In this document: positions 13,401 to 34,692 of the stretch, piece by piece | Layout of the letters: each line of letters starts with the position of its first letter | How positions within the stretch are numbered: the first letter of the stretch is position 1 | Source: Pleionea litopenaei | Lineage (GTDB): Bacteria; Pseudomonadota; Gammaproteobacteria; Enterobacterales; Kangiellaceae | Assembly: GCF_031198435.1 (NCBI RefSeq) | Contig: NZ_CP133548.1 | Location: 1,862,501 to 1,926,500 of the forward strand | Reading direction: 5' to 3' | DNA length: 64,000 bases | The notes under the pieces: generated by a model | What the model was told of the DNA's origin: nothing | The model's database searches: none | Seen by the model: the letters and a program-made list of their open reading frames with translations, nothing else | Translations under genes and position numbers: made by a program

Positions 13401-15792
13401 ATTGCTCAGGTAGTATACCGTTAACATCAATAACTGCGTTTGCGGCACCCGATACTTCTAACGACGCTACGTCACTTACTGCAAGGCCTCGATTATTAAC
13501 GACGACGCTTAACTGCCATTGATTATCAGTGTATTGAAGTTGTGCTTCTGCAAAACTTAAATCCGCTTGTGGGCCCGATGCAACAACCGATGCTTGCTTA
13601 ATGAGTTGATAATTGTATGCCGCTAAAACTGATTCGAAGTCTCCCGAGAAATAATAGGCAGACATCGAAAAGGCACTGCCTCCAGTAGCAAATGCTGTTT
13701 TAACAAATGGTTCAACATATAAATCAATTGCAGGTGAGCCTAATTCAAGACTTCGCTCTCGATCAAACTCACAAAATTCAAAGCCACCTTCTTCCGTTGC
13801 AACAAACGCTATATCCTCGCTATTTGCACCTATAGCAACCCTGCCATCGGCGCAATATGGCGTGTAGTTAGTTATCACATTTAGGACTATATTATTATCG
13901 ATATATCGCTGTCGCAATTCTGCTATTGTTTCACCATTAGTTAATCCTGCATTAGTTTCTTCATCAGCAAATAAAGTGACAGTTTTTGCGACGTTTTCTC
14001 GAAATGGATAGTTATCGATTGCTGTTTGAATGGCTAATAGCCCATTTTCTCCAATACCACTACCACCCGGCGGACCATCTGGAATATACATTTCATTGTA
14101 AAGTCCGCTGAAATCTGACCAAATACCTTGTTCAAAGTTAACAATTGTTGCAGCGTATCCAAAGCCAACAAGACCATAACGATTCTTGGTTTCGCCCGAT
14201 CCTATGCCATTATCAATTAACTCAATATCAGACTCTGTATAATGGCCCGATAAAAGTGGCCAAACTTGAGTCATTGAACTTGAGCCATCAACGAGATAGA
14301 CGGTATCCATTGCAACAGGCAGCTGCCCAACATCACTTTGAGAGACTGAACACGCGGTATTACTGGTTTGTAATCCCAGCTCAAACTCTTCCGTTGCGGT
14401 CCAATTCACTAGACCACTTTGTGGATCGATTTGTAATCCACTCGGGGCAGTGACTGCACTGTAGGTCAACACATCGCCATCCGGATCGGTGGCTTGTAAT
14501 TGGTAATTAAACACATCGCCAACATTGACTTGTGTATTCGGAGTACTGGTAATTGTCGGCGGATTATTTGCCGGTTGAATCACATCGATAGTTAACGAAT
14601 AAATACTTGAGTTTGCACTACCATCGTTGACTACAAACGTTAATTCATCACTGCCGTAGAAACCGTTATTCGGTTGATAATTGATGTTCATTCCTGAAAC
14701 AGTTGCTTGGCCATTTTGTGCAGCCGACACGATTGCAACGGTTAACGGATCACTATCAATATCACTGGCTTCGATAAGCACAGTACCCGTTGTTTGATAA
14801 TCGACTTGCAAACTAACATCAGCCGCTAGTGGCACATCATTCACTGGCGTAACATTAATGGTTAACGTCGCATCGTTTGAATACCCCGTGCCATCACTGA
14901 CACGAATGGTTAACGTTTCTGAACCATTAACGTTAGCATTTGGTTGAAAACTGATTTGAGGAAAGGTTGCATTGACCTGACCTAAACTAGAAACACCGAC
15001 CACTTCGAGTTGCAACGCATCGCCATCGACATCCACAGCCGATACGCTCACTTGACCCGCTTGATCTTCTGCAGTGGTTAATGTGATGTTTTGCAATACA
15101 GGTAAATCATTCACAGCCACAACCGAGACTGAAATGGTCGCATTCGTTGAATAAGCAGTGCCATCAAACGCGCGAATAACAAAACTGTCTTGACCAAAAA
15201 AGTTGGGCGCAGGTGTATAAGAAATCTGTTGTAGCTCTACTGTCGCGTTACCATTGTTGGCATTTGAAATCAATTCAAAAGTTAATGCATCATTATCAAT
15301 GTCACTGGCTAACGGAGAGAACGTAAACGACGTATCTTCACTGGTTGAAATCGACTGATTAGATAAGGTCGGAGCTTCGTTTGGAGCAACCGAAATTGTT
15401 AATGTGTAAGACTGAGTAATGGTTGCGCCACTGTCATCATTGACACTGACCTCTACAGAGTAGCTACCCGCATCACCGCGCAGCGGAGACCATTGAATAA
15501 CGCCAGCTGGCGTTATCGTCATACCAGCAGGCGCAGTAATCAAAGCAAACTGCCAACTGCTATCGTCACTGTCAGAAACGGTGATAGCGTATTCGTACCC
15601 AACGGTTTCTTGCCCAGCAGTAATCGGCGTTGAAGTAATTTCAGGCGCATCATTCACTTCGCTAATGTTCAGCGTATAGTTTTGTAAGGCCGATAATCCG
15701 CGCGAGTCTTGCACAGAAACGTCAATGATGTGATCACCAACATCGCTTTGTGTTGGAGTCCAAGTGATTTCACCTGAGTTAGAAATAATCAT
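4465..15792 (-). CDS. RHS/YD-repeat polymorphic toxin, main C-terminal portion
   Basis: This 3,775-codon frame is the bulk of a giant surface or secreted toxin; codons between 15792 and the stop at 15868 are also open in the same frame. In order it shows cadherin/He_PIG-type Ig repeats, a von Willebrand A domain with MIDAS motif DGSSSM (about 14,300), further Ig repeats, FG-GAP/VCBS-like repeats rich in DxNxDG (about 12,330-11,380), a CARDB-like segment, more Ig repeats, an RHS entry segment (TYDSRRRNETLDFGKGW, about 8,690), dozens of YD repeats, the RHS core (GEQYDSG, YYLRARYYD, DPSG at about 5,075) and a variable tip of roughly 200 residues. The tip contains WEQHHVAIQ and GFNLMAIPRGLNGALG, which resembles HNH/His-Me nuclease toxins. 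The downstream immunity-like gene overlaps closely. Confidence 0.9.
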   Translation of the reverse strand: MIISNSGEITWTPTQSDVGDHIIDVSVQDSRGLSALQNYTLNISEVNDAPEITSTPITAGQETVGYEYAITVSDSDDSSWQFALITAPAGMTITPAGVIQWSPLRGDAGSYSVEVSVNDDSGATITQSYTLTISVAPNEAPTLSNQSISTSEDTSFTFSPLASDIDNDALTFELISNANNGNATVELQQISYTPAPNFFGQDSFVIRAFDGTAYSTNATISVSVVAVNDLPVLQNITLTTAEDQAGQVSVSAVDVDGDALQLEVVGVSSLGQVNATFPQISFQPNANVNGSETLTIRVSDGTGYSNDATLTINVTPVNDVPLAADVSLQVDYQTTGTVLIEASDIDSDPLTVAIVSAAQNGQATVSGMNINYQPNNGFYGSDELTFVVNDGSANSSIYSLTIDVIQPANNPPTITSTPNTQVNVGDVFNYQLQATDPDGDVLTYSAVTAPSGLQIDPQSGLVNWTATEEFELGLQTSNTACSVSQSDVGQLPVAMDTVYLVDGSSSMTQVWPLLSGHYTESDIELIDNGIGSGETKNRYGLVGFGYAATIVNFEQGIWSDFSGLYNEMYIPDGPPGGSGIGENGLLAIQTAIDNYPFRENVAKTVTLFADEETNAGLTNGETIAELRQRYIDNNIVLNVITNYTPYCADGRVAIGANSEDIAFVATEEGGFEFCEFDRERSLELGSPAIDLYVEPFVKTAFATGGSAFSMSAYYFSGDFESVLAAYNYQLIKQASVVASGPQADLSFAEAQLQYTDNQWQLSVVVNNRGLAVSDVASLEVSGAANAVIDVNGILPEQSETLFIPLGQERLSGNLQLQINAGTNECLANNNQVTLPVISLLADDGEGGTATQTFNLNVGSNERIHEIISVPPTSLSLGLDLVYQVELSNTQKGDHYQYSLVGPESASIDSFAGLLRFKPTSEQIGNQDFTITVTNLAGEQVQQFFSVQVTNDYTLPRFTDETFQQRVTSNTSFEFQPTVISDSTAQLTYSLVHSPSSSSIDPQTGAFIYNAQDSDIDVIRLVNMKVTDQYGNSDYFIFSVFADYLNVAPSIIDSGEDLATIGPDGYQNIFSITDPNVRENFDLSITTSADFLSGQIYDYYGTDMLQGILAWSGEDAYSLHPLHGIDNNFLCSSSDNLVASSYAPLKLKNRFSIGGWISPLVMPLSDTNEDGVVDLRDDKGLIVHTSNTIRGISLDNQIEHWIMQFGASGLSLPPSRLHGMAAADINADGVLDVLYVVSGSSRTLVARSSDDGRLLWESAVGISNRTISYGDITIVDANNDGFVEITAGDSVFSHEGDLLLTFDAVNYSASRYSPIYTLDVNGDGIQDFIQKGIAKDLNGNEIGRVDYQRREGSKEAYMAFANFDNDPALEMVIVENIDSNVHIRTMALVDDDFSFIWGPTPIRNIGPVFVGDFTGDSNAEIFVSSADTLFDANGEIIWQLDDWSNYDGRLASVADIQGDGRLDVIIHRELFTFLIDGLTGEELNRKNAGNASTMAPVVIDSDGNQKLEIFTTTRGLLTIQEYDGVTLQQGLPQYYNQSIFSSDALQENLQVQQGQIVKADNSFGSVHVKSKRFTNGIADLWVGRPISRTRGEIVVDVKNKGTANYPYSFKVLLVKGDPDNGGEVIATQSSHSLSIGESQQLVFRGLDLEDYNGEVTAVIQALSIYEECSLDNNYTSSHTVEYTISDNAGESNSVYYLLGVQYLRSATPTILTPSELELTEGVEYKYGIDVLTDRSVDPLNFGSFQVHQGPDGLTINSKTGELSWTPELGQAGSYEVQVQRINFVNSSSRVFTLTVAPSPNSPPEITSVPNVGTAEIDTFIYQVEATDPDGDAITYRLLDGPTTMSIGAQSGYIEWIADQEGSITVSIEASDGQFTDVQTFTMDVTLSNSSPEITSTPSSQATANKVYQYSILATDAEGDAITFSLVSGPQAMTVDSTSGELRWAVSSSDVGLHDVVIAATDEHGFSSNQSFSVNVSSGLVNTAPMITSTPTGVVAPDQQYTYSFIAVDAENHALTYSLENAPTGMAISAQGLVQWTPSLSDVGTYNIVIKVEDELGAYAIQSYSLIVAVDGQSNDLPTISSTPFSFAQTNALYTYSVVASDPNGDALSYSLVTAPAGMSINGNDVSWTPTEVGSVSVQLRVSDGQNYVDQFWTINVSDEPVEFSALLSLAPRVAEPNEMINLAVQPQYARGEVTGSVSFNGNNYPLDAQLAAQFSGVNPGAYVVEVSLNDGSTNLVLTETVYIRDAADTQAPVVNIESPLDADVITRLQDVVISVSDDRLANWRLVLKARNTAPTDYQVIAEGNSNVSSQTVAQIDATMMLNGFYSLILQATDENGAESSVTTVVSVEEQLKLGVYTITLEDVNLPVAGIPIQVTRTYDSRRRNETLDFGKGWSIDYQNVRVQENQTLGFAWALNEYSSGYFSRWCVEPVSNPMVTVRLPDGDVEKFRAVADPGCTQFVPETNVRLAFEPIGATFSTLEQDTYSLLKLVNGHLVRAGDNGQVDPALYTLTTKEGMKYKLDQNFGVIKVIEPNGHSLTYSDNGITHSLNTDVDFVRNEQGLIEQIILPDDSVINYQYNSELELTRVEYPSGVSNEYTYLADHYLEELIDGQGRVVSRNEYDTDGRLIATYDAFGNKIEMIHNLADNVETVLDRNLNPTTYVFDDKGRVLSETNALNETTTRTYNEHGLMLSETNALNETTTWTYDDRANTLTETDPTGYVTNYVYDNTNQLIRMYDSTGKTLAENRYDIGRNLTELTRADGTSVSMLYDVGIGSNQTGQLLFMTDAEGNSTEYHVHFFTGQTVGQTDASGVRTDYTLDDNLNRTSESTTRTLADGTVETLVTTYEYDSGNRLVSTLYPDGTSSRVEYDENGREKTVYDEQDRATVMDYNDRGELISTTYPDGSTSEATYDANGNKLTETNRLGQVTTYTYDALNRVLTTTNADNRVTTNEYDEAGRLTAMIDARGFRTEYEYDSAGRRTKVIDAFNNEHSFAYDEEGNLVSETDALGHTTTYEYDLLNRRTATVFHNLSRVATEFDKADRQVAKLDQAQVRTEYEYDPLGRLVKVIDVLGNETSYTYDEQGNKLTQTDAEGRTTRWTYDSMGRVLTRQLPMGQTETSQYDSFGRLESHTDFNGDAKTFIYDVNDRITQISYADGSTESFTYDAIGNRLSATDASGTTVYTYDALSRLETETKPTGEVLSYEYDENGNKTRFTITYIGGAVREETFTYDRLNRLETVTDNNGNVTTYGYDAVGNRSSISYPNGSSQVYVYDELNRLTTLRHFDSNGALINEFNYTLHTTGRRTQIDELSGRSVINGYDELYRLTSETIVDPINGDYSASYTYDNVGNRTYSTINGVSTSFSYDNNDRITVQGDITYEYDDNGNTLFKGNLEEQTFYRYSLKNKLTQVESAEGINDYEYDVDNNRVEKTEAGTAVRFIVDNNQAYAQVIAEASDTNVIGKEYVYGDDLISQSANAASHYYMYDGLGSTRSLTDDSGSISDQYFYDAFGITLASVGSTDNNYLYTGEQYDSGLDNYYLRARYYDQNVGRFTQMDTWMGHNHDPVTLHKYLYANADPISYTDPSGHFSLGSLNAATSIRGILSTVAQSTMRVSTGVVGAGRASVSFVARYMGRLAVNVLRPVFRAAGRLSLQNARGRSLTSFDKFKRFFMSPTRSHPNVNWGPIGRFLKKAFPNVRWEQHHVAIQARWFRPGGPSQWYPHDRLANLGLQRLGNAGFNLMAIPRGLNGALGRSAWGTAGLAIGSYGTVAYGIYEIISSLGDD

Positions 15793-24430: not shown

Positions 24431-25165
24431 TTAAGGTCGGCTTTTTAAGTATTCGACGACAAACATACCTCGCAAGTCTCCGAGTTGATATCCTGTTGCC
24501 TTGTCTTCCGGATAAGCTTTCATAAGACTCTCTCTGACGTCCTCACTCAGATTATCTCCATGACAGGCCAAGCACAAAGGTTGAACATGAATACTTGAGT
24601 AATAGATCAGTTCATCGTCTCTTTCTACGGTTTTATGATAGGGCTTCTCGTTGCCAGTCATATTGGCAAAAAGTTCAAGAATCGCTTGCTCTTGTTCGTC
24701 CGCTTTGTTTTTTACGTTTCTATTCTTGTTGGATACACGTTTAATTTGCCACCCATTAATACTAAACTGCTTGGCAATCAAGGGCGCCTGCTTCTCACAG
24801 GTTACAATTCCTTGCTCAAATCCACCGGATTTAATGGCTTGTTGTAACTGCTTTTTTAATTCCGTCGAAAAATCCTTCACTAATTTTTTAGCGCGCCACT
24901 CAAACTCTTGCTGACCATCAAAAGTACCGTTGAACGTTTCGACACTCTTTGAGCTTGTCAAAGCCCTATCTTGAGAGGGCTTGACCAGAGCTTTTGATAC
25001 CTCACCTTTTTCACCGGCATTAGCAATGGGCATTAATATGCCCACTAGCATCAGCATTGGAAAAAGCCGTATGTTATTCAGCACATTCTTTATACGAGTG
25101 AAAGTCTCGATGGTATTCGCTCTGTACTTTTTAAAATGCACTCGACTGCTTTTTGACTGTGTCAT
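24431..25165 (-). CDS. DUF3365-type c-haem protein
   Basis: The protein (244 residues from the ATG at 25165, which follows GAGAG) has a basic N-terminus, one hydrophobic export segment (MLMLVGILMPIANA) and a periplasmic DUF3365/Tll0287-like domain. A single c-type haem site CLACH lies near the C-terminus (about residues 198-202 with this start), followed by YQLGDLRGMFVV, a family hallmark. Known relatives bind one haem and serve as redox or gas sensors or electron carriers. The gene begins about 25 bases after the SQR-like gene on the same strand, so the pair is probably one operon. I infer a role in handling electrons or sensing sulfide-linked redox state. Confidence 0.82.
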   Translation of the reverse strand: MTQSKSSRVHFKKYRANTIETFTRIKNVLNNIRLFPMLMLVGILMPIANAGEKGEVSKALVKPSQDRALTSSKSVETFNGTFDGQQEFEWRAKKLVKDFSTELKKQLQQAIKSGGFEQGIVTCEKQAPLIAKQFSINGWQIKRVSNKNRNVKNKADEQEQAILELFANMTGNEKPYHKTVERDDELIYYSSIHVQPLCLACHGDNLSEDVRESLMKAYPEDKATGYQLGDLRGMFVVEYLKSRP

Positions 25166-25189
25166 CGATACTCTCACTTCTATGGTTAA

Positions 25190-26461
25190 CTATTTTTCTA
25201 ACCGTTCAATACCCAAAGCTTTCAGAATATATTTTTCATAGACAGGCTCTGAATTTCCAGTCTTCATTTTTCGCATAAAATATTTTTCGAACGCAATTTT
25301 AGCGAGATGAACCCATTTACCTTTTTTATACCAAGTAATGTTACGTGGAGGAATTTGCGGAATGGCTACAAAAGCAGCTCCCGTGTCACCCATATCAGCA
25401 AGACAGATTGCTTGCCAAGTGCCTTTTGCTGAAGGTTCAGCGCCATCGATAATGATTGACTTCAAATTATGCGCGATTGCGGTCATCATGGTTTCTATCA
25501 TATACCCTGTTTTTGGTGTACCTGTTGGAACAGGCGTATCTTCAACAGGAGGAATCGCAACACAAACACCGCCGGAAAAAATATTGGGATAAGCAGGCGA
25601 ACGTTGAAACTCATCGGTAATAACAAACCCTTTGGGATTGCATAAACTTTCGACATTTGCCACAGCGTCAACACCAGAAAATGGCGGTATTAACATCGCA
25701 TGATTAAAATTCAATTCATGTTTGCTATCGAGTTCACCTTTATGGTTCATTTCACTCACATTCATTTTGCCCTGTTGAACTTCGTCGACCGAGGCGTTGC
25801 AAATCCATTTAATATCACGATGACGTAAATCAGACTCGAGCATCGACTTAGAGTCACCCACGCCACCTAAACCAAGATGCCCTATGTAGGGTTCGCTGGT
25901 TACAAACGTCATCGGAACTTTGTGTCGAATTTTAGCATCTCTCAATGCTTTATCTAATATAAATGCGTACTCATAGGCAGGACCAAAACAACTGGCTCCT
26001 TGAAAAGCACCGACCACAACTGGACCAGGGTTTTCTAACAACGCCTGAAAATCTTTGTAAGAACTCAAAGCATGATCAAGCGTACAAATCGATTGCGTAA
26101 ATCCATCTGGACCGGCACCTGGAATATTACTAAAGGCAAGTTTGGGTCCGGTTGCGATCACTAGATAATCGTAATCAACTTGCTCACCATTAACCGTTAA
26201 CTGATTGTTATTAGCATCGATTGATTCGACACGCCCACATAAAAATTGAATGCCTTTTTTACTAACATATTTTTCAATGGGAATGGTTATGGCTTCAGCT
26301 TTCTTCCAACCAACCGCGACCCAAGGATTAGAGGGAACAAAACGAAATTCGGGCTTTTCATTGATCAAGACAACCTCATGACCATTGCCCAATTGCTCTT
26401 TGATTTCATAAGCTGCGGGCATACCGCCCGTGCCAGCTCCTAATACAATAACTTTCGCCAT
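25190..26461 (-). CDS. sqr: Sulfide:quinone oxidoreductase-like flavoprotein
   Basis: This 423-residue protein begins with an FAD-binding Rossmann motif (VIVLGAGTGGMPAA) and carries a second ATG motif (LVIATGPKL). Three cysteines, C126, C158 (GASCFGP) and C353 (AICLADMG), fall at nearly the spacing of the catalytic cysteines of Aquifex SQR (124, 156, 347). The C-terminal KYFMRKMKTG stretch fits an amphipathic membrane-docking helix. The reaction would be oxidation of sulfide to persulfide or polysulfide with reduction of quinone. GGAGAG precedes the ATG. The DUF3365 haem gene follows directly and a sigma-54 activator lies upstream. A related FAD/NAD-linked oxidoreductase of other substrate is possible but less likely. 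Confidence 0.85.
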   Translation of the reverse strand: MAKVIVLGAGTGGMPAAYEIKEQLGNGHEVVLINEKPEFRFVPSNPWVAVGWKKAEAITIPIEKYVSKKGIQFLCGRVESIDANNNQLTVNGEQVDYDYLVIATGPKLAFSNIPGAGPDGFTQSICTLDHALSSYKDFQALLENPGPVVVGAFQGASCFGPAYEYAFILDKALRDAKIRHKVPMTFVTSEPYIGHLGLGGVGDSKSMLESDLRHRDIKWICNASVDEVQQGKMNVSEMNHKGELDSKHELNFNHAMLIPPFSGVDAVANVESLCNPKGFVITDEFQRSPAYPNIFSGGVCVAIPPVEDTPVPTGTPKTGYMIETMMTAIAHNLKSIIIDGAEPSAKGTWQAICLADMGDTGAAFVAIPQIPPRNITWYKKGKWVHLAKIAFEKYFMRKMKTGNSEPVYEKYILKALGIERLEK

Positions 26462-26547
26462 AAAACTCTCTCCACAATTATTGCGCTGCAGTAATTCTGA
26501 CAGCGATTAAATCAACGAAGGTGAAACTTCGAATAACCTGAAGAGTA

Positions 26548-26563
26548 ATCAATATTAATGCCA
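26548..26563 (-). promoter_or_regulatory. Candidate imperfect sigma-54 promoter of the SQR gene
   Basis: On the minus strand TGGCATTAATATTGAT matches the -24 element (TGGCA) and has GA where the -12 GC should be, with the correct 10-base gap. It lies about 87 bases before the SQR start and about 100 bases from the paired dyads. The -12 mismatch makes this tentative. Confidence 0.35.
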
Positions 26564-26651
26564 ACTCGTTTTAAATTGGCTAGAAGTCTTACAATGAAAG
26601 GTTTCCTCCGCGTTAACTGCAAAATAAGATTAACAACGATGAAACAAGATT

Positions 26652-26667
26652 ATGACAATACTGTCAT
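26652..26667. promoter_or_regulatory. TGNCA-N4-TGNCA dyad 1 upstream of the SQR gene
   Basis: ATGACAATACTGTCAT is a perfect dyad with 4-base spacer, the same design as the two dyads upstream of cydA. It is a probable upstream activator site for the neighbouring sigma-54 regulator. Confidence 0.5.
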
Positions 26668-26672
26668 TACGT

Positions 26673-26688
26673 CAGCCAAATTTGGCAA
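26673..26688. promoter_or_regulatory. TGNCA-N4-TGNCA-type dyad 2 upstream of the SQR gene
   Basis: CAGCCAAATTTGGCAA lies 21 bases, two helical turns, from dyad 1. Its right half is identical to the right half of the second cydA dyad. Extra TTGGCAAGCG and CTGGCAAAG half-sites follow at 26698-26718. Confidence 0.45.
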
Positions 26689-26750
26689 GCGATCGAATTG
26701 GCAAGCGACCAAACTGGCAAAGCCACCTTCGGCGTTGTTATGCACTGACC

Positions 26751-28058
26751 TTAATCAGAGGATTTCGAAGGATTAAGCGGCTTTAAATTAAATTGCTTGA
26801 GTTTTCGGTACAAGGTACGTTGACTAACTCCTAACACATCGGCCATTTGCTCAACGCTTCCTGTAAATGTTTGACATAGGTTCTCTAAATACTGCTGCTC
26901 TTGCTCTACCAGCGTGAGCAACTGCCCCTTATTCGATGCCGTCGGTTGCAATCGATGAGGAATATCGTCAACGTCGATCAACTCATCGTTCGCTAAAATG
27001 GCAGACTGAATAATCACACTTTTAAGCTCTCGAATATTGCCGGGAAAGTCTAGCTGAGCTAACCGGTTTAATGCCGCATCGGAAAAGTGCTTAGACGAAA
27101 ATTCTGATTGCTTTAAGAAGTGTTTTGCTAGCAGAGGAATATCGGAGCGCCGCTCTTCAAGACTTGGCAAAAAAACTGGGTAGGTTGCAATTCGATAATA
27201 CAAATCTTTACGAAACGTGCCCTCATCAACCATTTTTAATAAGTCTTTATGTGAAGCGCAAACCAAGCGAAAATCGGCACGTTTTTGTTTCAAACCGCCG
27301 ACGGCTCGAAAACTGTGCGTTTCGATTAGGCGTAAAAGCTTAACCTGCATATTCATAGGAACGTCTCCGATTTCATCGAAGAAAATCGTTCCTCCTTGCG
27401 CAACTTCAACTAACCCTTTCTTTGCGACCGATGCTCCAGTAAAAGCGCCTTTCTCATACCCAAAAAGCTCGCTTTCAAACAGACTCTCGCTGAGTCCTGT
27501 GCACTCAATCACGACAAAGGGCTTATCGTTTCGCTTACTTTGACTGTGCAAGGCTCTTGCAACAAGCTCTTTACCTGTGCCTGTATCTCCTTGCAGTAAA
27601 ACAGACACATCGGTTTGTGCCACTCGATTGATATGACTAAGCATAGTTTTGAAAGAAGTTGACTGACCAATCATTTTATTGGCCTCACCTTCTACGGTCG
27701 CAAAATCAATACGGTCCAGTATTTCTAAGTAACCGATAATACTTCCATCATCACCTTTCACCGGACGCATAACTATGTCGCAATATTTTCTACCGCGAGA
27801 CGTCTTGTGAATGTGCACAACACTCGTGGTTTTGCCGGTTGAAAGACACTCCTGCAATGGACAAGCTTCACCATGGTTATCACAAGGTGAATGATTACCG
27901 TGGGAAATCTCATAGCAACGACTCACTCCGGTTTTAATCGGCGCTTCATAAGTATCGATATAGGCTTGATTAACGGCGTTAATAACGTAGTTGGTATCAA
28001 TAAAAATAGCGGGTTTATCGATGGAGTTAATCATTGACTGAATAACCGATACATTCAT
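26751..28058 (-). CDS. Sigma-54-dependent activator with Cys/His-rich PAS domain
   Basis: The protein (435 residues from the ATG at 28058; AAAGGAG lies 11 bases before it) has three parts. An N-terminal PAS domain (about 1-115) holds an unusual cluster, with C48, H53, H56, C59, H62, C66, C71 and C93. The AAA+ domain shows Walker A GDTGTGKE (157-164), the sigma-54 contact loop GAFTGA (204-209) and Walker B TIFFDEIGD. A Fis-type helix-turn-helix ends the protein (VEQMADVLGVSQRTLYRKL). It activates sigma-54 promoters from upstream dyads. The cysteine cluster suggests a thiol, metal, Fe-S or persulfide switch, by analogy with FisR, a sulfane-sulfur-sensing activator of sqr genes. It is divergent from cydAB and upstream of the SQR gene. 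Confidence 0.9.
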   Translation of the reverse strand: MNVSVIQSMINSIDKPAIFIDTNYVINAVNQAYIDTYEAPIKTGVSRCYEISHGNHSPCDNHGEACPLQECLSTGKTTSVVHIHKTSRGRKYCDIVMRPVKGDDGSIIGYLEILDRIDFATVEGEANKMIGQSTSFKTMLSHINRVAQTDVSVLLQGDTGTGKELVARALHSQSKRNDKPFVVIECTGLSESLFESELFGYEKGAFTGASVAKKGLVEVAQGGTIFFDEIGDVPMNMQVKLLRLIETHSFRAVGGLKQKRADFRLVCASHKDLLKMVDEGTFRKDLYYRIATYPVFLPSLEERRSDIPLLAKHFLKQSEFSSKHFSDAALNRLAQLDFPGNIRELKSVIIQSAILANDELIDVDDIPHRLQPTASNKGQLLTLVEQEQQYLENLCQTFTGSVEQMADVLGVSQRTLYRKLKQFNLKPLNPSKSSD

Positions 28059-28141
28059 TACTAATGAGACTCCTTTATTCACCGCTCAGTTTTATTGGGC
28101 TTTTGATTGGGCTTTAGCAGATTTACGAATTAAAATACTGC

Positions 28142-28157
28142 CTGCCATATTTGACAG
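28142..28157. promoter_or_regulatory. Upstream activator dyad A before cydA
   Basis: CTGCCATATTTGACAG follows the TGNCA-N4-TGNCA pattern with one asymmetric base. It sits between the divergent regulator and cydA, about 120 bases upstream of the sigma-54 promoter. Confidence 0.55.
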
Positions 28158-28172
28158 ACAATACACCATATT

Positions 28173-28188
28173 TTGCCATCTTTGGCAA
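28173..28188. promoter_or_regulatory. Upstream activator dyad B before cydA
   Basis: TTGCCATCTTTGGCAA has 6-bp perfect arms and a 4-base spacer. Its centre is 31 bases, about three helical turns, from dyad A and about 83 bases from the -24 element, a normal distance for a sigma-54 activator site. Confidence 0.6.
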
Positions 28189-28229
28189 TGCATTTATTGA
28201 TTCCGCGAAATTTCTTCTGAGCTTTTCCC

Positions 28230-28242
28230 TAAGTCATTGATT
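28230..28242 (-). promoter_or_regulatory. IHF consensus site between activator dyads and promoter
   Basis: On the minus strand AATCAATGACTTA matches the IHF consensus WATCAANNNNTTR exactly. It lies between the dyads and the -24/-12 promoter, where a DNA bend would bring the activator to sigma-54 polymerase. Confidence 0.5.
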
Positions 28243-28260
28243 TTTATCAACTAGCACGGC

Positions 28261-28277
28261 TTGGCACATACCCTGCA
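28261..28277 (+). promoter_or_regulatory. Sigma-54 (-24/-12) promoter of the cyd operon
   Basis: TTGGCACATACCCTGCA matches the TGGCAC-N5-TTGCA consensus, with invariant GG (28263-28264) and GC (28275-28276) separated by exactly 10 bases. The predicted transcript starts near 28288, leaving a leader of about 48 bases before cydA, whose ATG is preceded by AGGAGA. Confidence 0.75.
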
Positions 28278-28335
28278 CTACGAGAGTCGAAAGTAACGAA
28301 TCTCACTTAAATTTACTGCAATAGGAGAAAGCTAA

Positions 28336-29893
28336 ATGAGCGATACATTAGTAGAGCTATCGCGCTGGCAGTTTGCATTGACCGCAATGTTTCACTTTAT
28401 ATTTGTTCCTTTGACGCTAGGGCTTAGTTTTTTGCTGGCGATCATGGAGTCTGTCTATGTGATGACTGGCAAAGAAATTTATAAGCGCATGACTCAATTT
28501 TGGGGAAAGCTTTTTGGAATCAATTTTGCGTTGGGTGTCGCTACCGGTTTAACCATGGAGTTTCAGTTTGGTATGAACTGGTCGTATTACAGTCACTATG
28601 TTGGCGACATTTTCGGAGCACCTCTGGCTATTGAAGGTCTGATGGCATTTTTTCCTCGAATCGACTTTCGTCGGTTTGTTTTTCTTTGGTTGGGGAAAGC
28701 TGTCTAAAGTAAAACATTTAATGGCCACCTGGCTGGTCGCCATTGGTTCGAACTTATCAGCGTTATGGATTTTGATCGCCAACGGCTGGATGCAATATCC
28801 AGTCGGTGCCGAGTTTAATCATGAATCCATGCGTATGGAAATGACGAGTTTTGCTGACGTTATTTTCAACCCCGTTGCACAAGTAAAGTTCGTTCATACC
28901 GTTTCTGCAGGTTACGTGACGGGCGCCATGTTTGTATTGGCAATCTCTAGCTATTACCTGTTGAAAAACATGCACATTGCTTTCGCTCGTCGATCGTTTG
29001 CTATAGCGGCAAGTTTTGGGCTCGCAGCGACCTTATCCGTTATCGTCTTAGGAGACGAGAGTGGTTATGAGTTAGGTGATGTTCAAAAAGTAAAACTTGC
29101 GGCGATCGAAGCTGAATATGATACGCACCCAGCTCCCGCTCCGTTTACACTGATTGGTATTCCCAATGATGAAACGGAAAGCGTTGACTACGCAGTGCAA
29201 ATTCCATGGTTGATGGGCATTATTGCAACCCGCTCTCTCGATGAAGAAGTACAAGGCATTAAGCAACACAAAATTGAACATCGCGAGAGAATTCTATCCG
29301 GTGTTCAAGCTTATCGAGTGCTCGATGATATTCGAAAAGGCACCGCGAACGATGAGCAAAAAGCCTTGTTCGAAGCCCATAAAGACGATCTTGGTTACGC
29401 ACTTCTATTGCAACCATTCGCCAATGACATAACACAACCCAATGAAACCGCCATTGATCGAGCGGTCGACTACAGCATTCCACCGGTAGCCCCTTTGTTT
29501 TGGAGCTTTCGTCTTATGGTGGCTTGCGGATTCATAATGTTGATCATTTTTGCCACCGCTTTTTATTACAGCGCGAAGCATAAGATTACGAAACCCCGTT
29601 GGTTACTAAAGCTCGCTTTCTGGTCTTTGCCGCTGCCTTGGATTGCTTCCGAAGCAGGCTGGTTTGTCGCAGAATTTGGACGACAACCTTGGTCTATCGC
29701 CGAAGTGCTTCCGGTCCATGCATCCGTTTCAAATCTAACGGTTGCCGAGGTTATCACTACCTTAATTCTCTACACGTTGTTTTACGGTGTGATGTTTATT
29801 GTCGGCTTCTATCTCATGAAACGGTTTGCAAAAGCCGGACCTCATGAGCCTGAAGATACAGCCAAGACTACACCATTACCAGCATACAACTAA
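28336..29893 (+). pseudogene. cydA: Cytochrome bd ubiquinol oxidase subunit I, frameshifted at a T6 run
   Basis: The first frame (28336-28707) encodes the CydA N-terminus and the second (to 29893) the rest. The break lies at six T at 28648-28653: removing one T restores [15 protein letters not shown], the expected CydA sequence, and an intact protein of 518 residues. Conserved features are present on both sides: H20 (equivalent to the E. coli b595 ligand H19), VKFVHTVSAGYVTGAMF with the second His, a long E. coli-type Q-loop and GRQPW. CydA oxidises quinol and reduces O2 at haems b558, b595 and d. With cydB, cydX and cydDC intact, a recent mutation, a sequencing error or slippage at the T run are all possible. 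Confidence 0.88.
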
Positions 29894-29904
29894 GGAGCAG
29901 ACTC

Positions 29905-31038
29905 ATGTTAGATTACGAAACGTTACGCGTCATTTGGTGGTGTCTGGTGGGTGTGTTACTCATTGGTTTTGCCGTTACCGATGGTTTTGACTTAGGTGTC
30001 GGCGCGTTACTCCGCATCGTCGGAAGAACCGATGAGCAACGACGAGTCATGATCAACTCGATTGGACCTCACTGGGATGGAAATCAAGTTTGGTTTATCA
30101 CTGCCGGCGGTGCATTGTTTGCTGCTTGGCCACTCGTCTATGCAGCCGCATTTTCTGGTCTCTACTTAGCCCTCGCTGTAACGCTCATCGCCTTGTGGAT
30201 GCGCCCTATTGGATTTGACTATCGCAGTAAGTTGCCTAACAAGCAATGGCGCAATGCCTGGGACTGGGCGTTGTTTGCCGGAGGTCTTATTCCTGCATTA
30301 ATTTTTGGTGTTGCTTTTGGAAATCTATTGGTTGGCTTGCCCTTCTCATACGATGACACATTGCGCCCAGCATTTGACGGAAACTTTTTTGATTTACTGA
30401 ATCCGTTTTCAATTTTAGCAGGGCTGGTTTCCGTCACGATGCTGTTGGCTCATGGAGCCAATTGGTTACAAATGAAAACTCATGACGATTTGTTACGACG
30501 CTCACAAGCGGCTAGCTTTTGGTTGTCACTGGCAACAATTATTTTATTTATGATCGGTGGTTTATGGCTAACTCAAATCGATGGTCATTTAGTACAATCG
30601 ATTATCGACACGCAAGCGACTTCAAACCCAACCAATAAAATAGTCACCACGGAAACCGGCGCTTGGTTGAACAACTACTCAGCGTATCCTGCCTTTGTTA
30701 TGGCGCCAACACTGGCTATTTTGGCAGGCATTTTGTCGGCACTCTTTAGCTATAAGGGACGTTCATGGCAAGCTTTCTTAATGAGCTCATTGATGATTGC
30801 GGGCATCATCTTAACCGCGGGTTTATCAATGTTTCCATTCTTGATGCCATCCAGTGCTGATCCTAACGTTGGATTAACACTATGGGATGCCACCTCAAGT
30901 GAAATGACGCTTAAAACCATGTTTATCGTTGCCTGCATCTTCGTTCCTATCGTTTTAAGTTACACGGTCTATAGCTTTTATGTGATGCGCGGAAAGATCC
31001 GTGAGTCTGAGCTGGATCATTCACACACCATTTATTAA
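29905..31038 (+). CDS. cydB: Cytochrome bd ubiquinol oxidase subunit II
   Basis: This 377-residue integral membrane protein has about eight to nine transmembrane helices and the family start LRVIWWCLVGVLLIGFAVTDGFDLG, of which GFAVTDGFDLGVG is the hallmark. It partners CydA in the inner-membrane quinol oxidase. AAGGAG precedes the ATG and only 11 bases separate it from cydA; cydX follows 11 bases later, so translation is tightly grouped. Length and sequence look intact. Confidence 0.95.
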   Translation: MLDYETLRVIWWCLVGVLLIGFAVTDGFDLGVGALLRIVGRTDEQRRVMINSIGPHWDGNQVWFITAGGALFAAWPLVYAAAFSGLYLALAVTLIALWMRPIGFDYRSKLPNKQWRNAWDWALFAGGLIPALIFGVAFGNLLVGLPFSYDDTLRPAFDGNFFDLLNPFSILAGLVSVTMLLAHGANWLQMKTHDDLLRRSQAASFWLSLATIILFMIGGLWLTQIDGHLVQSIIDTQATSNPTNKIVTTETGAWLNNYSAYPAFVMAPTLAILAGILSALFSYKGRSWQAFLMSSLMIAGIILTAGLSMFPFLMPSSADPNVGLTLWDATSSEMTLKTMFIVACIFVPIVLSYTVYSFYVMRGKIRESELDHSHTIY

Positions 31039-31049
31039 GGAGTTGAATC

Positions 31050-31154
31050 ATGTGGTACTTCACTTGGATTCTTGGCGTTCTGTTGGCATGCGCATTTGGT
31101 ATTATCAATGCCATGTGGCTTGAAGCCAACGAAGATATGGATCGCGAAGAGTAA
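31050..31154 (+). CDS. cydX: Cytochrome bd accessory subunit CydX
   Basis: This 34-residue protein begins MWYFTWILGVLLACAFG, continues with INAMWLE and ends in acidic residues, the pattern of CydX/YbgT small subunits: one helix, Trp-Tyr-Phe start and Glu near the helix end. AAGGAG lies at the right distance. CydX stabilises the haems of the oxidase. Its stop codon TAA is followed immediately by the ATG of cydD. Confidence 0.93.
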   Translation: MWYFTWILGVLLACAFGIINAMWLEANEDMDREE

Positions 31155-32789
31155 ATGTCTTTTAACAGTCTGCAAGCACTTGAGCAAGCCAGTAAACCGA
31201 ACCGCCGGTTTACTGCGCTGCTCGTTTTTAGCAAAGCTTTCTCACTCCTATCAATGCTAATAGCGAGCTATTATTTTGCTCGTCTGTCTTCCTTGGTTCT
31301 TGAAACATCGGAAAAATTAAACACAACTATTATTTGTAACATGCTAGGGTTAAAGCCAACCCTTGAAAGCTCATTGGTGTTGGTTTTAGTATTTACAGCG
31401 GTATCGATTCTATTTCGACAACTCAGTCAGGCAATCGAACAGTGCTACGCACGGTATAACGAAAAGAACTTAAACCGAGTGCTCATCGAACACTTCGAAC
31501 ACCATGGTTATACGGCGGTTAAGCACTATACGTTACATGAAACCAGAAATTATCTTCAGCTATTTACTCAACAAATAGCCGACTACCTTAGTCAGTTTCA
31601 AATTCAGAAACTACTAGCGGTTGTTCATCCAATAATATTAATCGCCGTCTTGTTTTACCATGCGCCATTAATTGCTCTAGCAATAGTCATTGCACTGCCA
31701 ACGGTTCCATTATTTATGATCATCATTGGTAGTAAAACGGCGAAAATGCAGAAGGAATATTTATCGGCGTTTGAACAATTGGGCAATCAATTTGGTAACC
31801 GATATATGAATGCCGAGTTAATCGTTCAATATCAAGCCAGTGAAGAACAAGCAGCGCAGCTAAGCTCAGCAGAGAAACACCTTAACACTAAGACATTAAA
31901 GGTTTTATCGGTGGCGTTTCTTAACGGCTCAGTAATCGACTTCTTCACAACACTAACCATGGCTATCATCGCGGTTCTGATCGGCTTCGATCTTTTAGGT
32001 GAAGTTAATATTGTTGACGAGTTAACTTTCTCCAACGGCTTTTTCATTCTATTAATAAGCCCAATGATTCTCGCAGACTTAAAATTGCTGGGTCAGCGTT
32101 ACCATCAGAAGAGAGATTATGAAGTCGCCAAAGATAAATTAACGAATTTTCTTTCGTTGTCAGAAAAAACAAAGACTCAATCCATCGCTTGGAGAAGTGG
32201 CAAGATAGAAATAAAACATTTTAACATTTCAAAACCTGAATTGACGGCACCTGAACTGACCATCAATCAAGGCGATAAAATATTACTACTCGGCCCATCC
32301 GGCGCTGGAAAAACATTGTTAATGAGCGCCCTAGCAGGAGAGTATCCAGCAACTCACCAGCTAGATGTACCGATTGCTCAAATGCATCAGCGCCCGGTGA
32401 TTCTACCAGGCAGCCTTAGATATAACTTGCAACTGGATCATTCCATTGATGATGACACCTTACTTTCTAAATTGGGTCAAGTTGAGCTCACAGAGTGGTT
32501 TAGTCGCTTTAACAACCTAGATCAAATAATGAGCCTAACACCCGCTTTGTCGGGAGGAGAGAAGCAACGACTTGCTTTAGCCAGAATCTTATTAAGTCAG
32601 CGAGAGGTTATTTTTTTAGACGAACCCACCGCCTACTTAACCGAGACCATGCACCAAAACCTGAGCCAAGCTATTCGCTCCAATTTTCAAAATAAGACGA
32701 TAATCTGGGCCAGCCATCGAGCACTTCCGACTCAGTGGTTTGATCAAATTTGGAAAATCGATAACGGAGTGATTGTTCGTGAGAGATAG
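31155..32789 (+). CDS. cydD: ABC transporter subunit CydD, needed for cytochrome bd assembly
   Basis: This 544-residue half-transporter has an N-terminal membrane domain of about six helices and a C-terminal ATPase with Walker A GPSGAGKT, signature LSGGEKQRLALARI and Walker B EVIFLDEPTAYL. CydDC exports glutathione or cysteine, or handles haem, to keep the periplasm fit for bd assembly. The ATG abuts the cydX stop, so translation is coupled. It is placed after cydX, unlike E. coli, where cydDC lies elsewhere. It is somewhat shorter than E. coli CydD. Confidence 0.9.
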   Translation: MSFNSLQALEQASKPNRRFTALLVFSKAFSLLSMLIASYYFARLSSLVLETSEKLNTTIICNMLGLKPTLESSLVLVLVFTAVSILFRQLSQAIEQCYARYNEKNLNRVLIEHFEHHGYTAVKHYTLHETRNYLQLFTQQIADYLSQFQIQKLLAVVHPIILIAVLFYHAPLIALAIVIALPTVPLFMIIIGSKTAKMQKEYLSAFEQLGNQFGNRYMNAELIVQYQASEEQAAQLSSAEKHLNTKTLKVLSVAFLNGSVIDFFTTLTMAIIAVLIGFDLLGEVNIVDELTFSNGFFILLISPMILADLKLLGQRYHQKRDYEVAKDKLTNFLSLSEKTKTQSIAWRSGKIEIKHFNISKPELTAPELTINQGDKILLLGPSGAGKTLLMSALAGEYPATHQLDVPIAQMHQRPVILPGSLRYNLQLDHSIDDDTLLSKLGQVELTEWFSRFNNLDQIMSLTPALSGGEKQRLALARILLSQREVIFLDEPTAYLTETMHQNLSQAIRSNFQNKTIIWASHRALPTQWFDQIWKIDNGVIVRER

Positions 32790-34692
32790 AGCAGCCAAAT
32801 GGACAACGTTGATATTGATCCTACTGGTCAACTTCACCACATTGGGGTTGCTGATGGTCTCTACTTGGTTTATTGCGGCCTCAGCTACCTTTGGAACGAC
32901 TCTCAATTACATGCTACCGGCGGTGATTATTCGAGCACTCGCGTTAACTCGTATTGCGAGTGGTTACGGTGAGAAAATTATCGGTCATCAATATTTGTTC
33001 AGTAAATTATCGACATTTAGAGTGTTACTGATCAAACGGATGTTTACCAGCCTTACGCAGAACAATGCTCCAACCAACAATAATGTTCTAACCAACAATA
33101 ATGTTCTAACCAACAATAATGTTCTAACCAACAATAATGCCCCAACCATCAATAATATTCTCGAGCAAAACGCCGACATTCGACAGCCTACCTCGTCAGA
33201 AAAACTCGATGAAGTGAATCATCACGCACAACAAGCTGCTGCCATCTGGGTATATGGTCATTCACAACTAATTAGCCTTGTCGCCACTTTAACGGTTCTT
33301 AATGCGCTTAGTTTGATGCTACTGCCTAGTTTTTTGATCGCGACTGTATCAATCACCCTCATTTTTACAATGCTTTTTTGCGCTCTTCTAGTTGCCAGTA
33401 GAAGAACTGCCAAACAACGTCGCAAACTAGAGAGTGACGTTCAAATGGACTTCGAGCATTTTCATCGCTCAGCGCCTTTATGGCACTTATATCAAACGAT
33501 GCCAAAGGTAAGCATAGAGAAATTAAACGATCTCGATAGGATTAATGAGTCTCAATCACAAAAGGCAAATTCATTGCTTCAGATAGCTGGTATGGTTGTG
33601 TTGGCGGTGATGGTCATCGGAGGAAACCTGCAGGTTCATCAACCCATTGACATTCTATTACTAACACTCTTGTTTTTAGTAGCAGAATGGTTAGGAGCCT
33701 ACTTAAAACTACCTGCGCAATTAACAAACATGCAAGTGAGCCATGATAGAATCAAAGAACTGATTAAAAGTGCCTCCATAGGTCAAATTGAAATCAACCA
33801 AGCGACTCGTTTGCCAATGAGTCCTTCTAGTAATTATTCGTTAAAAAACTATCCATCAAAAAATTATCCATCAAAAATCTATCCGTCTAATAATTTTTTC
33901 TCTGACCGCTTTTCATCTAGTGAGGTAAATTCAATCGATCTGAATAAGTATGAAGCTCGGCACAGCCAATTTCCTCCATTAACGGTTTCTTTTAAAGCGC
34001 ATGGAAACCATATTATTCTTGGCAGCTCGGGCATAGGTAAGACATCACTTTTAAAAGCCTTGGTTGGATTAAACGAGGCAACAGGAAGTTTACAAATAAA
34101 TAATGTTAGTAGTATCGACTCCTTACAGCCTCAAGCAATCTATGTCTCTTCATCTGAGTTAGAACTATATGGTACCTTACGAGAGAGTCTGACCCTCGGA
34201 AAGTCATTTTCAGATGAAGAAATATATCAGGTGCTAGAAGCCGTCAATCTAACTAGCCTGAATCAACTTGATGAGTTTCTAGGTGAAGGATCTCGTCGTT
34301 TATCCGGAGGAGAGTTAAAAAGATTATCCATTGCGCGAGCACTGTTGCATAACCGAGCTTTTCTATTGCTCGATGAACCATTTGAAGGTCTCGATCAGAA
34401 CAATATTCACAATTTATGTAAACTATTTAATCAACTAAAAAATACACACACACTATTTATAGCGACGCATATTCTTCCTGAGGAGTTAGAGGTAAGTTCT
34501 TGTTTAGATTTAGAAACATTGAGATTCGAACACTCTCCTGAAGCAAGGCTGAGCGAGTTCGAACATGCCTATATATTTAAACATATTCATGATGAGGCAA
34601 CAGCAAACTTCGGCTCTTTGATAAGTCGGTCGAATAAGTCACCGATGGATAAAGAACTACCCAATTCAAATTCTGCACCGAGCATTCTATGA
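32779..34692 (+). CDS. cydC: ABC transporter subunit CydC, with repeat-bearing insertions
   Basis: The second half-transporter has about 637 residues. I chose the GTG at 32779 because GGAG lies 9 bases before it; a TTG six bases upstream is too close to that site. It overlaps cydD by 11 bases. The ATPase shows Walker A GSSGIGKTS, signature LSGGELKRLSIARAL and Walker B FLLLDEPFEG. Two low-complexity insertions are unusual: an Asn-rich tandem repeat near residues 95-125, in the membrane domain, and an NYPSK-type repeat near 350-375, before the ATPase. A third Asn/Ser-rich stretch ends the protein. The core domains look intact. Confidence 0.88.
   Translation: MRDRAAKWTTLILILLVNFTTLGLLMVSTWFIAASATFGTTLNYMLPAVIIRALALTRIASGYGEKIIGHQYLFSKLSTFRVLLIKRMFTSLTQNNAPTNNNVLTNNNVLTNNNVLTNNNAPTINNILEQNADIRQPTSSEKLDEVNHHAQQAAAIWVYGHSQLISLVATLTVLNALSLMLLPSFLIATVSITLIFTMLFCALLVASRRTAKQRRKLESDVQMDFEHFHRSAPLWHLYQTMPKVSIEKLNDLDRINESQSQKANSLLQIAGMVVLAVMVIGGNLQVHQPIDILLLTLLFLVAEWLGAYLKLPAQLTNMQVSHDRIKELIKSASIGQIEINQATRLPMSPSSNYSLKNYPSKNYPSKIYPSNNFFSDRFSSSEVNSIDLNKYEARHSQFPPLTVSFKAHGNHIILGSSGIGKTSLLKALVGLNEATGSLQINNVSSIDSLQPQAIYVSSSELELYGTLRESLTLGKSFSDEEIYQVLEAVNLTSLNQLDEFLGEGSRRLSGGELKRLSIARALLHNRAFLLLDEPFEGLDQNNIHNLCKLFNQLKNTHTLFIATHILPEELEVSSCLDLETLRFEHSPEARLSEFEHAYIFKHIHDEATANFGSLISRSNKSPMDKELPNSNSAPSIL
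33061..33150 (+). repeat. 18-bp in-frame tandem repeat inside cydC
   Basis: Units of the form AACAATAATGTTCTAACC repeat about five times, three of them identical and the outer ones degenerate. Each encodes a hexapeptide NNNVLT, so copy-number change would keep the frame. Confidence 0.85.

Follow-up and report, generated by a model that had tools for sequence, protein, structure and literature searches.

A candidate FisR-type regulon joining sulfide oxidation and cytochrome bd genes in Pleionea litopenaei

We analysed a stretch of 64,000 nucleotides from Pleionea litopenaei (contig NZ_CP133548.1, positions 1,862,501 to 1,926,500; hereafter the window), in which the gene of a sigma-54 activator lies between a sulfide:quinone oxidoreductase (SQR) gene and the genes of a cytochrome bd oxidase. 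We consider it likely that a FisR-type sulfane-sulfur regulon has here been extended to a terminal oxidase, so that sulfide oxidation and a sulfide-resistant oxidase would be built together. Joint control of sqr and cyd by a FisR-like activator had been put forward in an original prediction made from the letters of the window; this proposal is supported by conserved predicted sites, by a control set of FisR-less cydA genes, by a site pair at a dioxygenase operon and by repeated linkage of fisR and cyd. FisR control of sqr and pdo and the resistance of cytochrome bd to sulfide were already known, and the apparent novelty is the presence of cytochrome bd in a FisR regulon.

The host genome (4.42 Mb, three contigs) contains one match to rpoN. 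In the window, the activator gene (26751..28058), sqr (25190..26461) and a gene for a Tll0287/DUF3365 protein (24431..25177) are consecutive on the minus strand, and cydA, cydB, cydX, cydD and cydC (28336-34692, plus strand) are divergent from the activator gene. The activator start was set at 28058, the longest frame starting at 28082. The best solved relatives of the sqr product were SQR structures (3sz0 and kin; phmmer against the PDB, E 1.5e-161), matched over the full length at 541 bits and with three cysteines aligned. We take these structures to be Acidithiobacillus type I SQRs and the aligned cysteines to be the catalytic ones. With its FAD domain, its full-length match to solved SQRs and its three catalytic cysteines, the protein, predicted earlier as SQR-like, is a true type I SQR. 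The DUF3365 haem protein expected to follow it was also found, encoded just outside the interval originally considered, as was the PAS-bearing sigma-54 activator divergent from cydA.

According to Pfam, this activator is composed of PAS_4, sigma-54 AAA+, lid and Fis-type helix-turn-helix (HTH) domains. Residues C48, C59 and C66 of its PAS domain fit the pattern C-x10-C-x6-C, which was present in all 115 FisR-like proteins analysed (118 rows, three of which were dropped as too short). Across 25 aligned PAS domains, C48, H53, C59, C66, H82 and H84 were invariant. AlphaFold2, run on these 25 sequences, returned a PAS fold with a mean predicted local distance difference test (pLDDT) score of 86.7, and the nearest solved folds included the PAS domains of NifL, LOV and VqmA; those of NifL and LOV bind flavin. 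In FisR of Cupriavidus pinatubonensis, a tetrasulfide is formed between C53 and C64 (PMC8614764; here and below, statements on cited articles refer to the parts of them available to us). The spacing of C48 and C59 is the same, which gives the activator the cysteine arrangement of FisR. A sensor domain, here PAS, is combined with sigma-54 AAA+ and Fis HTH domains, and the gene adjoins sqr, with predicted sites and -24/-12 promoters before both sqr and a dioxygenase operon elsewhere in the genome. At the sequence level, assignment of the activator to FisR is therefore well supported. We take the third conserved cysteine of FisR to be at position 71. By analogy with the characterised FisR, the activator would respond to sulfide or, more likely, to sulfane sulfur.

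As a stand-in for the characterised C. pinatubonensis protein, we used a homologue from Cupriavidus metallidurans, which forms a long branch of unsure position in the tree. Its gene and that of a Blh-type dioxygenase are divergent; the latter is followed by a gene for a mitochondrial-type SQR (315 bits to 6mp5), presumably type II, and a TauE gene lies behind the activator. The first motif cysteine of this homologue is residue 53, as counted by hand from a chosen start methionine. The AAA+ and Fis HTH core is also shared with NorR and NifA-type activators; unlike these, the host protein falls under the curated cut-offs (270 bits versus 476 for NCBIfam NorR, and 295 versus 529 for the NifA type), and NorR, with nitric oxide control, was rejected as a family assignment. 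Another genome (G159) encodes, in addition to the main FisR, a paralogue that has these three cysteines (L012 3703-5031), with none of the sulfur genes sought nearby.

An inverted repeat, TGNCA-N4-TGNCA, was spotted by eye above -24/-12 elements in the window and in three relatives. Upstream of cydA, two exact dyads form predicted activator sites 31 bp apart (site 1, TGCCATATTTGACA, 28143..28156; site 2, TGCCATCTTTGGCA, 28174..28187), and below them lies a -24/-12 element on the plus strand (TGGCACATACCCTGCA, 28262..28277) that matches 7/8 scored positions, including GG-N10-GC. Upstream of sqr, an exact dyad (site 1, 26653..26666) and a dyad with one mismatch (site 2, 26674..26687) are 21 bp apart and accompany a -24/-12-like element on the minus strand (TGGCATTAATATTGAT, complement of 26548..26563; 7/8 scored positions, imperfect -12). 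The shared control sites claimed earlier thus take the form of paired dyads with a -24/-12 element at both sqr and cydA. With one mismatch allowed, the motif had 41 matches in the window alone versus 27.7 expected, which is mildly above chance; the strength of the site claim comes from pairing, placement and conservation, not from this count. A loose scan of the whole genome for sigma-54 promoters was uninformative (2028 forward matches versus 1551 for the reversed control).

To describe conservation, we used 81 upstream regions, 76 of them from 46 of the 50 close named loci and five from the window, L009 and L094, and obtained expected counts from 100 dinucleotide shuffles of each region. Of the 81 regions, 65 contained an exact site, against 0.61 expected; 66 contained a -24/-12 element scoring at least 7/8, against 1.65; and in 50 a site lay above such an element, against 0.0. 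Of 19 distances between adjacent exact sites, 17 were 20-22 or 29-33 bp, which corresponds to two or three helical turns, and the remaining two were 9 and 263 bp. Among more distant members, 62 loci had a detectable activator start, and 22 of these carried an exact site no more than 250 bp upstream of the activator gene.

The specificity of the site was assessed on cydA upstream regions from 29 loci of the order, namely the 30 best loci less the FisR-bearing L167; one of them, L196, gave only 67 bases. The genomes concerned are not among the four of the order that bear the PAS domain (found in 4 of 197). They were compared with 42 FisR-linked cydA upstream regions, that of the window being excluded. 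An exact site was observed in 29 of the 42 FisR-linked regions versus 1 of the 29 FisR-less ones, and a site above an element scoring at least 6 in 27 of 42 versus 1 of 29.

A narrower pattern, TGHCA-N4-TGDCA, had 60 matches in the host genome versus 33 for its reversed control. Among the 50 of these 60 sites that were listed, only two pairs lay within 60 bp, each with a distance of 31 bp between its sites, namely that of cydA and one at C1:637304/637335; by an arithmetic estimate, chance alone would give about 0.05 such close pairs. The second one, 1.25 Mb from the cluster, is upstream of genes for a Blh-type dioxygenase, a BLH-phosphatase/DUF442 protein and a SulP transporter (G000:C1:637304-640505; L094 5305-8506). 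A sigma-54 element (TGGCATAGTTACTGCT) lies between the pair and the dioxygenase gene, and the site centres lie 77 and 108 bp upstream of its -24 element, versus 81 and 112 bp at cydA. The dioxygenase scored 393 bits to NF040641, the family of Blh-type sulfur transferases/dioxygenases, and ETHE1 persulfide dioxygenase was among its solved relatives (E 2e-19). Both halves of the Blh type are present in this operon as neighbouring genes (393 and 62 bits); in contrast to the family, they are two separate proteins, and both score below 625, the cut-off that applies to the fused form. This operon is an apparent third target of the activator, and its dioxygenase would complete the pathway lacking in the cluster. 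The candidate FisR site, which has already led to this distant operon, can be used to find members of the regulon.

Linkage of fisR and cyd recurs in Alteromonadales and in some other gammaproteobacteria. The PAS alignment identified 51 named loci, of which 33 have a cydA homologue near fisR and 28 have sqr there; this set includes L092, a distant Desulfobacula row where nothing was found, and several contigs that end early. It covers Alteromonas, Ningiella, Glaciecola, Paraglaciecola, Bowmanella, Aestuariibacter, Marisediminitalea and Psychrosphaera, as well as eight Shewanella loci, with cydA in none and sqr in five. In two Pseudoalteromonas records, fisR is divergent from cyd. Two Paraglaciecola loci (L048 and L090) have bd genes of a divergent type in the same place (28-35% identity to the CydA query); overall, distant bd types by fisR have identities of 28-38%, versus 59-98% for the others. 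On a quick tree of 115 FisR rows, 43 of which carry the cyd label, no fewer than 15 changes of this label are required, seven of them forced by well-supported branches, which indicates that the link was gained or lost repeatedly. FisR of the window is sister to that of a P. piscicida record (Shimodaira-Hasegawa approximate likelihood-ratio test, 98), which likewise adjoins cyd. In a Pseudoalteromonas xiamenensis record (L117 5952-8663), CydA and CydB form one 903-residue frame adjoining fisR, annotated as a single coding sequence; this may be a natural fusion or a record error.

We compared five genomes of the genus; only that of the window was found to contain fisR, sqr and a canonical cydB. 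None of the three genes was found in the four congeners, three of which had a weak divergent match to cydB (34-40% identity) and one no match at all, so the unit was probably acquired, with Alteromonadales as the probable source. The adjoining uvrA, MFS-like and ssb genes (named by eye) are together in all four congeners, and the window genes from the other side of ssb were not found in the 3.8-8.4 kb beyond ssb that were examined there. A broader idea, on which we are evenly divided, is that of a horizontally mobile module for "sulfide-proof respiration", in which a persulfide-sensing sigma-54 activator would have taken over control of a terminal oxidase more than once, whether canonical bd or a divergent, cyanide-insensitive-like type. 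One sulfur signal would then build the whole branch from sulfide through SQR, quinone and bd to oxygen, with an optional FNR gate.

Several observations weigh against a FisR regulon that has been extended to cyd. The counts, although strong, are not independent, since the motif was picked from a few of the regions later counted and many of the loci belong to close relatives. No exact site was present in 16 of the 81 regions (eleven Alteromonas fisR-Tll regions and five cydA upstream regions), and the sqr promoter, with its poor -12, is weaker than the cydA element. When the element had to score at least 7, a site above it was found in only 15 of the 42 FisR-linked cydA regions (versus 1 of 29 FisR-less). 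Thirteen of the 42 had no exact site within 450 bp, among them L118, the sister locus of the window, where only near-matches were seen. Moreover, in the FisR-less genome G106 (L168), cydA is preceded by a single TGNCA-N4-TGNCA site and by a sigma-54-like element. In the class, where the PAS domain was matched in 73 of 369 genomes, a cydA homologue was nearby in 8 of 60 loci (7 of the 20 first fetched and 1 of the 40 others), a low share outside the order, and the activator frame was cut short in one of these eight (L107). Finally, cydA of the window is not one open frame in the deposited sequence and encodes no intact CydA.

The cytochrome bd genes of the original prediction are all present: cydB, cydX and the cydD- and cydC-like genes are open, but cydA is split over two frames, which had been missed. 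The 5' piece (28336..28707, plus strand), after which the frame is broken, covers positions 1-99 of PF01654, and the 3' piece, in another frame (28676..29893, plus strand), covers positions 107-418. As in cytochrome bd-I (CydABX), cydB (29905..31038, plus strand) and cydX (31050..31154, plus strand) are present, both above their NCBIfam cut-offs (TIGR00203, 503 bits versus 117; TIGR02106, 68.9 bits versus 31.6). We compared 69 other loci whose CydA is canonical (identity of 50% or more; several from close kin); all align across the break site unbroken, in one piece. The break is thus particular to the host sequence, as an assembly error or a young mutation, and a programmed frameshift was rejected on the same grounds. 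Since cydA is frameshifted, the switch may yield no working oxidase in the sequenced strain. A second CydA, of divergent type, is encoded by an open frame of 501 residues at C1:1698352 (L095), where the neighbouring upstream gene encodes a small regulator that is MarR/GbsR-like by eye.

For the host, these data make it possible that the module is decaying, although we lean against this: cydA would be a true pseudogene, only the SQR and dioxygenase part would work, and the second bd would take the quinol electrons. The break, absent from all 69 canonical loci, and the open frame of the divergent CydA speak for such decay. The rest of cydA and cydB, cydX, cydD and cydC are nevertheless open, the cydA pieces, cydB and cydX share 69-97% identity with those of locus L011, and a single break beside a one-base run is also a common assembly error. 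Decay in this host would be compatible with a FisR regulon that includes cyd in the relatives.

It is unlikely, in our view, that the same activator and targets answer to another signal, the Cys/His PAS domain binding a metal or sensing redox state, nitric oxide or low oxygen, and the sulfide genes being co-induced in a respiratory-stress response. The invariant histidines that accompany the cysteines in the 25 PAS domains, the flavin-binding PAS domains of NifL and LOV among the nearest solved folds, the absence of the five genes sought from the neighbourhood of 33 of the 115 FisR-like rows and an FNR-like box at cydA would all agree with such a signal. Against it stand the recurrent neighbours, which are sqr, dioxygenase and TauE-type genes, the NorR score far under its cut-off, and a cysteine spacing that is that of FisR, a sulfane-sulfur sensor (PMC8614764).

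The FNR-like box, missed by the original prediction, is a perfect TTGAT-N4-ATCAA (TTGATTTTTATCAA, 28237..28250) located 11 bases above the -24 element of cydA. We take this sequence to be the FNR/ANR consensus. Looser boxes within 450 bp of cydA were present in 15 of the 29 FisR-less controls and in 14 of 43 FisR-linked genes, including that of the window; in these sets, a box at most 50 bp from the sigma-54 element was found only in the window, L063, L072 and L093. The position of the box by the promoter makes it likely that cydA of the window has two inputs, and suggests that the gene is also under oxygen control, integrating low oxygen with sulfane sulfur. It is very improbable that control by fisR is limited to sqr and the dioxygenase operon, with cyd as a chance or hitch-hiking neighbour under an FNR/Arc-type oxygen regulator: this perfect box and the frequency of such boxes in FisR-less regions favour it, but cydA of the window has its own paired predicted sites and sigma-54-type promoter, a site above a promoter element distinguishes FisR-linked from FisR-less cydA genes (27 of 42 versus 1 of 29, as above), and distant bd types fill the same place in different fisR clusters.

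In the FisR regulon that we favour, oxidation of sulfide by SQR would yield persulfide or polysulfide, which would link C48 and C59 of the PAS domain in the manner of the C53-C64 tetrasulfide of Cupriavidus FisR. The activator would then contact sigma-54 polymerase from the paired sites. Electrons from sulfide would pass from SQR to quinone and through the sulfide-resistant cytochrome bd to oxygen, and the dioxygenase would remove the persulfide. CydDC may aid the assembly of bd and the thiol balance of the periplasm, where the Tll0287 protein may have a redox role.

Two characterised FisR systems can be compared with this arrangement. FisR of C. pinatubonensis JMP134 is said to have been described by Li et al. 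in 2017. It is likewise a sigma-54 activator of sulfide-oxidising genes, with the sensor pair C53/C64 and three conserved cysteines (PMC8614764, PMC9774590). The host target set differs by the addition of cydABX-cydDC and of the haem-c protein; in addition, the host SQR is of type I, whereas a mitochondrial-type SQR is encoded beside the C. metallidurans homologue, and the host dioxygenase operon lies elsewhere in the genome. In Acinetobacter baumannii, FisR is also a sigma-54 activator, of an operon for SQR, persulfide dioxygenase (PDO) and TauE, and cydAB rises with sulfide, with a predicted link to SQR through quinone (PMC7315123). Unlike the host activator, this FisR does not have the regulatory cysteines of Cupriavidus; cydAB lies elsewhere, and the available parts of the article assign no regulator to its induction and claim no direct FisR control of it (PMC7315123). 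In the parts of PMC7315123, PMC8148161 and PMC9774590 available to us, cyd is not placed under FisR, and no report of direct control of cyd by a FisR-type activator was found in the literature searched, most subscription papers lying outside its reach. Cytochrome bd resists sulfide and is induced by it, and the regulator behind this induction is not settled in the articles examined, as far as available; the conserved FisR-cyd linkage with its predicted sites would provide a direct answer for marine gammaproteobacteria.

Cytochrome bd-I of Escherichia coli is under ArcA/FNR control, and we know of no sigma-54 sulfur-sensing activator acting on it. It is of the same CydABX class as the host oxidase and is resistant to sulfide (PMC7315123, PMC8148161, PMC9774590).

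The Tll0287/DUF3365 protein (24431..25177, minus strand) is a stand-alone member of the sCache_heme/Tll0287 family, with a PF11845 match of 83.8 bits and a CXXCH haem-c motif; this motif and one upstream cysteine were invariant in four aligned sequences. An N-terminal hydrophobic stretch suggests that it is periplasmic. A preprint describes one stand-alone protein of this family with stable Cys/His haem ligation and weak binding of nitric oxide and oxygen, for which a redox role was proposed (PMC12889525). The proteins of that study share the single domain, the CXXCH and the conserved extra cysteine; they differ in having no sulfide link in the main text available, where the word does not occur (PMC12889525). 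The present cluster would tie this haem-c protein family, whose role is unclear, to sulfide metabolism.

Downstream of cydX, two genes encode putative subunits of a thiol exporter. The best NCBIfam match of the first (31155..32789, plus strand) is CydD, at 277.6 bits and under the cut-off of 435, and that of the second (32773..34692, plus strand) is CydC, at 150.6 bits and under the cut-off of 329. The N-terminal half of the CydC-like protein contains Asn-rich low-complexity repeats (NNNVLT and similar). Elsewhere in the window, a single open frame of 3775 residues was observed on the minus strand (4465-15792).

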